Of a stretch of 64,000 nt of DNA, positions 52,688-55,978 are shown piece by piece. Made by a program: the position numbers and the translations under genes. The notes under the pieces are model-generated. The model made no database searches, was not told the origin of the DNA, and saw only the letters and a list, made by a program, of their open reading frames with translations. The DNA is from Pseudeuparius sepicola. Taxonomy: Eukaryota; Arthropoda; Insecta; Coleoptera; Anthribidae. The number at the start of each line of letters is the position of its first letter. Positions within the stretch are counted from its first letter, which is position 1. The DNA lies in assembly GCA_963920635.1 (NCBI GenBank), contig OY987301.1, positions 53,822,560-53,886,559 on the forward strand. Direction: 5' to 3'.

Positions 52688-55600
52688 ATGCTTTCTCAAG
52701 GAATAATTAGACCTTCTGTTTCACCATGGTCGTCCCCAGTATGGGTCGTTCCAAAAAAATTAGACGCTTCAGGCAAACAAAAATGGAGAATCGTAATTGA
52801 TTATCGGAAATTAAATGAATTAACAGTTAATGACAGGTATCCACTGCCTAATATTTCAGATATATTAGATCAGTTGGGTAATTGCCATTATGTTACTACT
52901 TTAGATTTGGCTTCTGGTTTTCAACAAATTGAAATGAATCCAGAAGACATTTCTAAAACTGCTTTTTCCATTGAAAATGGCCATTTTGAATATTTACGTA
53001 TGCCCTTTGGCCTTCGTAATGCGCCCTCAACTTTTCAGAGGGTTATGGATAATATACTAATGGGGATACAAAACGAAAAGTGCTTAGTTTACATGGACGA
53101 CATTATTATTTATTCTTCCACAATTAATGAGCATATCTCTCGTATTACTGAAGTTTTTCAAAGATTAAGAAATTCAAATCTAAAAATACAGCCAGATAAG
53201 TGCGAATTCTTACGAAAAGAAGTAATTTATTTAGGACATGTTATTACACCTGAAGGGGTTAAACCAAATCCACAAAAGGTACAAGCTGTTATCGATTTTC
53301 CTCAACCTGCCAATACTAAACAAATTAAACAATTTTTGGGTCTTACTGGTTACTACAGGAAGTTTATTCCAAATTTCGCAAAAATGACAAAGCCTTTAAC
53401 TCGACTTTTAAGAAAAGACGTACCATTTATTTTTGATAAAGATTGTCGTGAATCTTTCGAACAACTTAAAAATGCATTAATAACTTCACCAATTCTAATA
53501 TATCCTAATTTTGAAAAAGAATTTGTTTTAACTACAGATGCTGTAGGCGCGGTACTTTCGCAAGGACCTGTTGGAAATGATCTTCCCATAGCATACTTTT
53601 CAAGAATCTTAAGTCCAGCAGAAATGAAATATAGCGTTATAGAGAAAGAACTATTGGCAATAATTGCTGCCGTAAAAAACTATAGACCTTATCTTTTCGG
53701 ACGAAAATTCTTATTGGTTACAGATCATAGACCTTTAACCTGGCTTTTCTCAATAAAAGATCCCGGTAGTCGTTTAGCACGTTGGCGACTTAAATTAGAA
53801 GAATATAATTATCAAATAATTTATAAACCTGGAAAAATTAATCGAAATGCCGACGCTTTATCTCGAATCAAAATCAATCACATAAAAGAAGCTGTTTCCT
53901 TTCAGACTTCCCTAGACGAACCATCTACTTCCCATGATAATCCTCAAGACATTGACCCGCCTATTGACAATAATGAGACTGACGAAATTGCTATAATCTG
54001 TAATGAATTTGACAGATTTTTTGATTTATACAAGACGACTTCAATGATCGACTATTCTAAAATCCAATACACAAATAATCAACTTTTAGACAAAACACAC
54101 AAAGACATTGTACTAATTTTTCAACAAGACAAATTAACAGACCTTCACGAAAAAGTTATTGATGAGCTAAATCCTGATTTTAACTATAATAAAGCAAATG
54201 TTCTTTCCAGTCAAACCGTAGCTAAAAGAAAATATTATATAATTCCTGTTCCTTTTAATTTTGAAACCGCAATACAAGTACTCTTCATATCTCTTTATTA
54301 CAGTAAAGATATATTCGAAGAAAATAAAACTTATTACATTGAAAACAATCCAGATTTTCCAATTTTAGAAATGTTTAATTTTTTGTTCTCAGACAAAAAC
54401 TTTCAACTAACAATTTGTCAGAACATTGTGACTATACCAGACGAAGACCAAATACCTATAATAATAGATCAATTTCATTCAGGCAAGACAAACTTACATC
54501 GAGGAATAAACGAAACATTTAGACGCATCAAACAAAAATATAATTGGACAGGACTAACTAAAGACGTTGAAACATTTATTCGGCAGTGCGAAATCTGCCA
54601 AAAGACAAAAATTTGTAGACAAAACTTGGACAGTCCCTTAGTTATTACCGAAACTCCTAAAACTGCTTTCGAAAGAATAAATATTGACATTCTAGAAATC
54701 CCAGTGAAAAATAATATCCTTACCATAAGAGACGAACTGACAAAATTTACCCAGGCTTATGCACTTCCTAATAAAACAGCGAGATCTGTAGTAGACGCTC
54801 TTTTACTCTATTTTCAACATTTTGGAACTCCTTTAAGAATCCATTGCGATGTAGGTAAAGAATTTAATATTCAATTAATGAAAGATCTTTGTAAATTATA
54901 CAATATAAAATTAACTTTCTCTAGTGTTAGTCATCCGCAATCAAATGGCTCCTTAGAAAGATTTCATGCCCCCTTAACTGAAATGATACGTCCATGTAGT
55001 ACAGAAAATCCAAATGAGCACCCATTTCAAATGCTTCCTTACGCTTGTATAGCCTATAACAATTCTATAAATAAAACACACGGCTTTACTCCTTACGAAT
55101 TGCTATTCGGTCACACCTCGTCTCGACCTCCAGAAGTTTTGTATAATCAGCAAGAATTAATCTCTAAGTACGTTCGCGATTTAAACAATAAAATAAAGCA
55201 TTATTATGAAGTGGCAAGAAAGCGTACAGATATGCGCAAACAAAAGGCAAAACAGCGATTTGATACACACGTTTCGGAGCAGCGACAATTTCGCGTAGGA
55301 GAAAAGGTTTATGTCAAGGAGTCCCAAATAAAAAATAAACTAGCTAACAAATTTAACGGACCCTATAAAATTAAAGAAATTTATACGAATTCAGCTTTGC
55401 TACATAACCCAATTACTAACCAAACTACAAAAATGAATTTTGATATGCTAAAGAAATGTCACGAATTGGAGGAAAAAGAACTAACGGTTAAAGAATTCTT
55501 TTACACTGTAGATCGAAAAATCCCTATTGAAAATAATAACGTTTCCATTGAACTGGGCAATTTATTTGATGCCCCTGAAAATATTTCATTAGCTCACTGT

Positions 55601-55978
55601 GTATCTAAAGATTTAGAAATGAATGCAGGAATTGAAAAAGAATTTAAGAATAAATTTGGACACGTAGATGAACTAAAAAATCAAAATAAGTCAATTGGTG
55701 AAATAGCAGTACTTCAACTTCCGACAAGAAATATTTATTATTTAATAACTAAAGAATTTTTCTATTATAAACCAACTTATGCTAATTTATTTAATTGCTT
55801 AAAGGAATTACGAATAATTTGTCTCCAGAGCACTAATGAAAAAGATAAAATTATAGCTATACCCAAGTTAGCTTGTGGATTAGACAAATTAGATTGGGAC
55901 ACAGTTCTCCCTATGATCAAATATATTTTCAAAAATACTGATATTAAAATAATTTGTTATATCGAACCAAGTTCCTAA
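52688..55978 (+). CDS. pol: Gypsy B Pol: RT, RNase H, integrase and macrodomain
   Basis: A 1096-codon frame continuing the protease frame after the UAA; its Met is internal to Pol. RT has SPWSSPVWVVPKK, TLDLASGFQQIEM and YMDD at residues 135-138. RNase H starts near residue 280 but lacks four residues after LTTDA compared with A, and has TDHRPLTWL. Integrase has the HHCC finger (residues about 597-637) and the DDE core (about 667, 720 and 756), although its HATL segment reads HAPL. A basic GPY-like part follows (FRVGEKVYVKE). Residues about 951-1092 are a TARG1-like macrodomain. The function in an intact element would be replication, integration and, by inference, ADP-ribose removal. Confidence 0.95.
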   Translation: MLSQGIIRPSVSPWSSPVWVVPKKLDASGKQKWRIVIDYRKLNELTVNDRYPLPNISDILDQLGNCHYVTTLDLASGFQQIEMNPEDISKTAFSIENGHFEYLRMPFGLRNAPSTFQRVMDNILMGIQNEKCLVYMDDIIIYSSTINEHISRITEVFQRLRNSNLKIQPDKCEFLRKEVIYLGHVITPEGVKPNPQKVQAVIDFPQPANTKQIKQFLGLTGYYRKFIPNFAKMTKPLTRLLRKDVPFIFDKDCRESFEQLKNALITSPILIYPNFEKEFVLTTDAVGAVLSQGPVGNDLPIAYFSRILSPAEMKYSVIEKELLAIIAAVKNYRPYLFGRKFLLVTDHRPLTWLFSIKDPGSRLARWRLKLEEYNYQIIYKPGKINRNADALSRIKINHIKEAVSFQTSLDEPSTSHDNPQDIDPPIDNNETDEIAIICNEFDRFFDLYKTTSMIDYSKIQYTNNQLLDKTHKDIVLIFQQDKLTDLHEKVIDELNPDFNYNKANVLSSQTVAKRKYYIIPVPFNFETAIQVLFISLYYSKDIFEENKTYYIENNPDFPILEMFNFLFSDKNFQLTICQNIVTIPDEDQIPIIIDQFHSGKTNLHRGINETFRRIKQKYNWTGLTKDVETFIRQCEICQKTKICRQNLDSPLVITETPKTAFERINIDILEIPVKNNILTIRDELTKFTQAYALPNKTARSVVDALLLYFQHFGTPLRIHCDVGKEFNIQLMKDLCKLYNIKLTFSSVSHPQSNGSLERFHAPLTEMIRPCSTENPNEHPFQMLPYACIAYNNSINKTHGFTPYELLFGHTSSRPPEVLYNQQELISKYVRDLNNKIKHYYEVARKRTDMRKQKAKQRFDTHVSEQRQFRVGEKVYVKESQIKNKLANKFNGPYKIKEIYTNSALLHNPITNQTTKMNFDMLKKCHELEEKELTVKEFFYTVDRKIPIENNNVSIELGNLFDAPENISLAHCVSKDLEMNAGIEKEFKNKFGHVDELKNQNKSIGEIAVLQLPTRNIYYLITKEFFYYKPTYANLFNCLKELRIICLQSTNEKDKIIAIPKLACGLDKLDWDTVLPMIKYIFKNTDIKIICYIEPSS
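55538..55972 (+). other. TARG1/OARD1-like macrodomain fused to Gypsy B Pol
   Basis: From IELGNLFDAPENISLAHC the segment follows the TARG1 macrodomain pattern: ALAHC-like strand and loop, KDLEMNAGIEKEFKNKFG, GEIAVLQLPTRNIYYLITK, KPTYANLFNCLKEL, IAIPKLACGLDKLDWDTVLP and a final TDIKIICYIE strand. The two residues known to be catalytic in TARG1 are conserved: Lys (residue 1022 of this frame, in LITK) and Asp (residue 1066, in CGLD). TARG1-type enzymes remove ADP-ribose from modified proteins. Fusion to Pol and presence in two copies are seen directly; the role for the element is inferred. Confidence 0.9.

Follow-up and report, generated by a model that had tools for sequence, protein, structure and literature searches.

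A TARG1-like macrodomain in the Pol protein of an env-bearing Gypsy element of the beetle Pseudeuparius sepicola, with related domains at other Pol positions

What is an (ADP-ribosyl)hydrolase-like domain doing at the end of the Pol protein of an insect retroelement? The question is raised by a stretch of 64,000 nucleotides from Pseudeuparius sepicola (contig OY987301.1, positions 53,822,560 to 53,886,559 of the forward strand), called here the window, and by a Ty3/Gypsy element in it, called copy B. An earlier note on this DNA had proposed that the Pol frame of copy B ends in a macrodomain of the TARG1/OARD1 class, with a catalytic Lys in the motif LITK and a catalytic Asp in the motif CGLD. 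Both proposals were borne out, as the domain matches TARG1 strongly in sequence and fold, and K1022 and D1066 of Pol align to the catalytic Lys84 and Asp125 of TARG1. The features of the copy B Pol open reading frame (ORF) are the following.

52688..55978, plus strand: Pol ORF of 1096 aa, with reverse transcriptase (RT), RNase H, integrase and TARG1 macrodomain, from the ORF and profile matches
55463..55537, plus strand: linker from the integrase C-terminal stretch to the macrodomain, a predicted helix
55538..55975, plus strand: macrodomain of the TARG1/OARD1 class, residues 951-1096, from sequence and fold match
55751..55753, plus strand: K1022, counterpart of TARG1 Lys84 by alignment
55883..55885, plus strand: D1066, counterpart of TARG1 Asp125 by alignment

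TARG1 was the nearest fold to the copy B macrodomain in both sequence and structure comparison, and the nearest solved structure is not of the alphavirus or coronavirus kind. The domain also falls outside the DarG antitoxin class, with 32 bits against an NCBIfam cut-off of 250. Among the 14 element-borne domains in the last of the trees described below, the Lys of the dyad is retained in all and the Asp in 13, and we infer from this retention that the element macrodomains are active enzymes.

The order RT, RNase H, integrase in the copy B Pol is the Gypsy order. The rest of the element was delimited as follows.

49674..50087, plus strand: 5′ long terminal repeat (LTR), TGTTATATCC...CGTAACA, start located by motif, matching the LTRs of copies A and C of the window and of other genome copies
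50427..51623, plus strand: gag-like ORF of 398 aa, from place and composition
51602..52687, plus strand: protease-like and RT N-terminal part in the pol frame, the protease by reading
56058..57839, plus strand: env ORF of the Baculo_F family (PF12259, E 2e-34)

The gag-like ORF gave no significant match to Pfam profiles (Retrotrans_gag E 0.04, zf-CCHC E 0.6). The pol frame is shifted relative to gag and has two in-frame stops within 51602..52687, and the env frame is already open from 55953. The Baculo_F-type match agrees with the earlier description of the element as env-bearing. No LTR pair was detectable around copy B, and its LTR is recognisable only via the LTRs of other copies; the 3′ LTR is absent, and other sequence follows. 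This sequence (58550-62062, 3′ of env) includes an ORF that matches a protease weakly (E 0.01) and another that encodes an integrase with DUF5641. Presumably it is a BEL/Pao element, possibly one that took the place of the 3′ end of copy B.

Related copies show that the macrodomain belongs to the Pol frame, as the earlier note had it. The genome searched comprises 769 Mb in 16 contigs, and for the family of copy B (F1) the best 150 of 910 first-look candidates, ranked by protein similarity, were scored, so that copy counts are lower bounds. All 150 scored matches are 94-100% identical to the query domain, with zero stops inside it, and 50 of them lie within an open frame of 1488-1499 aa. The two findings that the earlier note had set against its own proposal, no macrodomain match or relatives with the domain outside the Pol frame, were both looked for, and neither held. 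LTR regions were compared in ten long-frame F1 copies (eight of 1498-1499 aa, two of 1497 aa). These LTRs measure about 412 bp and have TG...CA ends. A primer-site-like stretch shared by the copies follows the LTR, and a purine tract precedes it. Four of the ten LTR pairs are 100% identical and the others 97.8-99.8%, one of these in an alignment of 620 bp that runs past the LTR. The target-site duplication, 4 bp of the form TNNA, was read by eye in nine of the ten copies. The F1 element has thus moved recently, and the window element is best described as a high-copy Ty3/Gypsy element with env and recent activity, of the insect endogenous retrovirus, or errantivirus, type.

Related domains were found in further elements. 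The first homologue search returned two Pol proteins, P0001 of Harmonia axyridis (54% identity) and P0002 (47%), in both of which tblastn placed the domain between RNase H and integrase; with Pfam Macro, P0001 was unlisted and P0002 weak. A profile search, of which the best 120 of 5119 hits were considered, yielded P0023, whose macrodomain comes after an integrase C-terminal module of another kind (SH3_Tf2-1, Integrase_p58_C). In the genome of the window itself, searches with P0003 and P0022 (best 150 scored rows each, with fetched loci examined) led to further families, so that six, F1 to F6, are named in one genome.

F2 (L030-L034, L036, and also L046, L047, L053, L054, L069) has a single frame of gag, protease, macrodomain and RT, placed by Pfam in L034 at residues 56-146, 209-297, 529-627 and 885-1048, respectively, and its RT is 46% identical to that of F1. 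In F3 (L038, L035) the macrodomain is likewise upstream of RT. Pfam found the macrodomain and RT in the L038 frame and did not find the protease, and no macrodomain match occurs downstream of the L038 integrase. Compared with F1, L038 is 80% identical in RT, 71% in integrase and 60% in env (232 residues; a second env piece 38%). The assignment of L035 to F3 comes from its RT (86% to L038); its macrodomain instead adjoins F6 in the tree. Of the two F6 loci (L067, L070), L067 has its macrodomain ahead of an RT that shares 81% identity with F1 and 87% with F3, and L070 gave an RNase H match and no RT match. In F4 (L037, L049-L052) the macrodomain follows a region reading as protease. L037 retains RNase H and integrase, RT not being found, and L049-L051 showed no RT or integrase match from the macrodomain to env and look like deletion derivatives.

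F5 (L056-L065, also L068) has the macrodomain between RNase H and integrase. Five of its ten fetched loci (L056, L057, L060, L064, L065) match the order RT, RNase H, domain, integrase fully, and three more (L059, L061, L062) match RNase H and integrase; L063 gave no integrase match, and L058 no RT, RNase H or integrase match. The Pfam Macro search added L074-L078, where integrase follows the domain; in L074 and L075 the domain is preceded by RT and RNase H. L076-L078 keep the macrodomain and gave no RT match, and the RT-less copies L049-L051 and L076-L078 are possible non-autonomous derivatives. One genome thus holds such domains at three Pol positions: ahead of RT (and behind the protease, where one was seen), in the interval between RNase H and integrase, and at the C-terminus, and sister elements with about 80% identical RT carry the macrodomain at different places. 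The C-terminal fusion described in the earlier note occupies just one of these three positions.

Two other copies of the element lie in the window.

10991..12718, minus strand: copy A, ORF with integrase and macrodomain, 95% identical to the copy B Pol
10997..11407, minus strand: macrodomain of copy A, from which 24 nt are deleted in frame
8705..9068, minus strand: copy A 3′ LTR, 364 bp matched
26432..27858, minus strand: copy C, an incomplete element made up of an LTR and the 5′ part of gag, 94% identical to copy B

Copy A is 94% identical to copy B in nucleotides over 5.8 kb, broken by a 1.4-kb repeat, and has the integrase-macrodomain fusion and the final residues as in copy B. Its macrodomain was not listed by Pfam Macro at E up to 0.1. 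The 1.4-kb repeat occurs at 14866-16261, inside the protease region of copy A, and at 42059-43454, the two being 97% identical. A large array at 18457-23691 consists of repeats spaced about 240 bp apart; its two blocks, 18457-21074 and 21150-23691, run in opposite directions, and the matches within the array are about 71-93% identical.

Over 138 macrodomain codons, copies A and B differ by 9 synonymous and 5 non-synonymous changes, a ratio of non-synonymous to synonymous rates (dN/dS) of 0.13 (binomial p 3.5e-4). Since RT gave 0.21 and integrase 0.09 in the same comparison, the macrodomain is constrained about as strongly as these enzymes, under purifying selection. In F2 (six copies, 15 pairs, leaving aside L046, L047, L053, L054 and L069) and F4 (five copies, 10 pairs), macrodomain dN/dS was 0.12-0.37 in 24 of the 25 pairs, which are non-independent and from which stop codons (one each in L036 and L052) were excluded; the remaining pair, at 0.75, rests on four changes.

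Did the domain enter these elements once? In a 47-row macrodomain tree, the 12 element domains are set apart together, as a single group, from the 35 other OARD1-type proteins (support 96/80), and in a 45-row tree with F5 and F6 added the group comprises 14 element domains (93/65). In the earliest tree, of 49 rows with four elements, P0002 stood apart from the other elements. Of the 120 listed hits, 45 supplied the non-element rows, and near-duplicates were left out (10 of the 45 non-element rows in the 47-row tree; four more and two element rows in the 45-row tree). Within the macrodomain tree, F1 groups with P0001 and P0023 (98/93), and F5 with F3, F4 and F6 (95/88). The RT tree (8 rows) instead places F1 beside F3 and F6 (86/92) and F5 beside P0001 (94/94). 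Four changes of the position label are required by the macrodomain tree, against a possible minimum of two, and 21 of 200 shuffles were equally low. Because sister elements differ in the place of the domain and the two trees disagree, the module has probably moved or been regained between positions and lineages.

Approximately unbiased (AU) tests are compatible with either relocation between positions and lineages or repeated uptake. Constraining F1 with F3 and F4 cost 15.7 log-likelihood units (p-AU 0.151), and with L038 alone gave p-AU 0.021. Constraints of F1 with P0023 and of P0001 with P0002 gave p 0.405 and 0.142, and holding the four first-known elements together gave p-AU 0.346.

Capture from a host OARD1 gene would be the natural origin of the domain, and the element group might turn out to include insect host genes. 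The host OARD1 was not recognised in the genome searches with P0003, P0022 or Pfam Macro, in which its exons could score below the limits. The Pfam Macro search gave at least 54 matches (best 150 of 435 candidates scored), and at the top of its ranking are three short exon-like matches, two neighbouring on contig C4 and one on C3, which are presumably MacroD-like and GDAP2-like. L046 was considered as a host OARD1 candidate and rejected, as its flanks read as an F2 fragment. Separately, P0099, P0086 and P0014 are OARD1-type proteins with N-terminal additions, with a weak bZIP match under the cut-off in P0099.

Viruses of arthropods appear to carry comparable folds. Predicted-structure matches include VP8 of Kadipiro virus, the best at 43% identity, proteins of thrips flavi-, virga- and negev-like viruses and of an isopod iridescent virus, and likewise phage and coronavirus proteins. 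Known from fold match, they suggest a possible shared target in arthropods. No relatives turned up when viral contigs were scanned with patterns based on the window domain, on its RT and on the domains of P0001, P0002 and P0023. A search with alignment A1 found one IMG/VR contig (L001) and nothing in prokaryote genomes. L001 has a TARG1-like macrodomain ORF (4944-5360) and, about 600 bp on, a second ORF (5965-6408) that is presumably a NADAR domain, so that perhaps two ADP-ribose erasers lie close together.

We consider it probable that the domain in Pol is a TARG1-class (ADP-ribosyl)hydrolase carried in the virion that undoes a host ADP-ribosylation response. The macrodomain would be translated as part of Gag-Pol and in Gag-Pol amounts, packaged with RT and integrase, and would accompany them to the new cell and its nucleus. 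At that stage the Lys/Asp dyad would strip ADP-ribose placed by host transferases, candidate targets being element proteins, integration-site chromatin, and the newly made DNA, at its ends or thymidines. The removal would reverse a host ADP-ribosylation that would otherwise block replication or integration. In mammals, mono-ADP-ribosylation of KAP1 by SIRT6 silences L1 (PMC4695847). A counter-defence role is favoured because of this precedent, the recurrence of the domain in several families and the fold matches in arthropod viruses. More tentatively, at somewhat under an even chance, the TARG1 lineage on retroelements would be an exchangeable counter-defence cassette among at least three Pol positions and several Ty3/Gypsy families, in step with an undescribed arthropod restriction by ADP-ribosylation. 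On this reading, the number of families and positions would speak for a continuing arms race and against capture on one occasion.

Several observations weigh against this account. The lack of stops in the scored F1 copies is partly selected by their similarity ranking, which biases the view of decay, and L055, an F1 copy outside the scored list, has one stop in the domain. Stops in the domain are also present in L036 and L054 of F2 (four in the matched stretch of L054) and in L052 of F4. Copy A is short of eight residues before CGLD, and in L038 the Asp of the dyad is replaced by Gly, with the Lys retained. Such copies (L038, copy A, L055, L036, L054, L052) may simply have decayed, or the L038 domain may have been converted to a binder. 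A further Gypsy element of the window, winD (ORF 34293-36221, minus strand), gave no macrodomain match by tblastn, so that the domain is dispensable for some Gypsy elements here. The element, at 32853-39668, comprises winD and a partner at 37452-39668 that shares 95% identity with it across 2.2 kb, and it likewise gave no such match. No insect OARD1 was recognised among the named listed hits, many hits being without names. Finally, TARG1 is also a DNA-repair factor, and the role need not be counter-defence.

The last point leads to an alternative that is unlikely in our judgement, in which the substrates of the domain are ADP-ribosylated DNA ends or PARP1-modified chromatin arising from integration, so that it aids gap repair, with no dedicated defence involved. 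TARG1 removes ADP-ribose from acidic residues, nucleic-acid phosphate ends and thymidine, interacts with PARP1, and shifts to the nucleoplasm upon DNA damage (PMC7050489, PMC9411070), and this suits a repair factor, as does the position of the domain next to integrase in F1, F5, P0001 and P0002. In F2, F3 and F6, however, it is upstream of RT, far from integrase, and the arthropod RNA viruses with fold-matching domains also speak against a repair role. Quite improbable is that the domain is a reader which binds ADP-ribosylated chromatin and steers integration, as the chromodomains of chromoviruses do, hydrolysis being incidental. Macrodomains do bind ADP-ribose, and the chromovirus targeting domains sit C-terminal to integrase, but a reader would not need the Lys/Asp dyad kept in 13 of 14 element domains, nor does it fit the two other Pol positions. 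That the domain is a functionless fragment of a host gene, transduced and copied along, could account for the persistence of copy A despite its deletion and for copies with stops, but is very improbable given the low dN/dS in the window and in F2 and F4, the several families and three positions, and the retained dyad.

Similar to the errantiviruses (Drosophila gypsy, ZAM), the family of the window element has LTRs, a gag-like ORF, a shifted pol with RT, RNase H and integrase, a Baculo_F env and a 4-bp target duplication; it differs from them in the extra hydrolase domain. TARG1 itself (OARD1, C6orf130; ALC1-like class) is a free-standing cellular enzyme, whereas the window domain is part of a retroelement Pol. 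The viral macrodomains of alphaviruses, coronaviruses and hepeviruses share the fold and the presumed role against ADP-ribosylation. Retroviral dUTPase is likewise a captured host enzyme in Pol whose position varies by lineage, with a different enzyme and substrate. Fish epsilon-like endogenous retroviruses with macro-domain or CNPase genes as additional ORFs (Basta et al. 2009, as cited in PMC4977317) are also retroelements with a captured macrodomain, but they are vertebrate retroviruses with separate ORFs, the macrodomain class is unstated, and Gypsy Pol is not involved. Orchid Ty3/Gypsy elements carry a captured AlkB-like N6-methyladenosine demethylase (PMC9289625), also an eraser of a host modification; that case differs in being from a plant, in a separate ORF and directed at an RNA methyl mark. 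The earlier note knew of no established account of a TARG1-type domain in an insect env-bearing Gypsy element, and none was found for Gypsy or errantivirus Pol in the mostly open-access literature searched (the matches of narrow queries and the top-ranked ones of broad queries). The terms macrodomain and ADP-ribos are absent from the main text of two recent papers on insect endogenous retroviruses (PMC13172572, PMC12992720).

The presence of the domain in several families and at different places suggests an unrecognised host defence that has to be undone. Captured accessory enzymes in retroelements reveal which host defence counts, and a TARG1-class eraser that is under selection, sits at three Pol positions and occurs in recent copies points to ADP-ribosylation as an arthropod defence against retroelements. 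The finding names a testable enzyme and provides a natural case of module exchange inside Pol, and TARG1 domains would serve as markers for similar elements.

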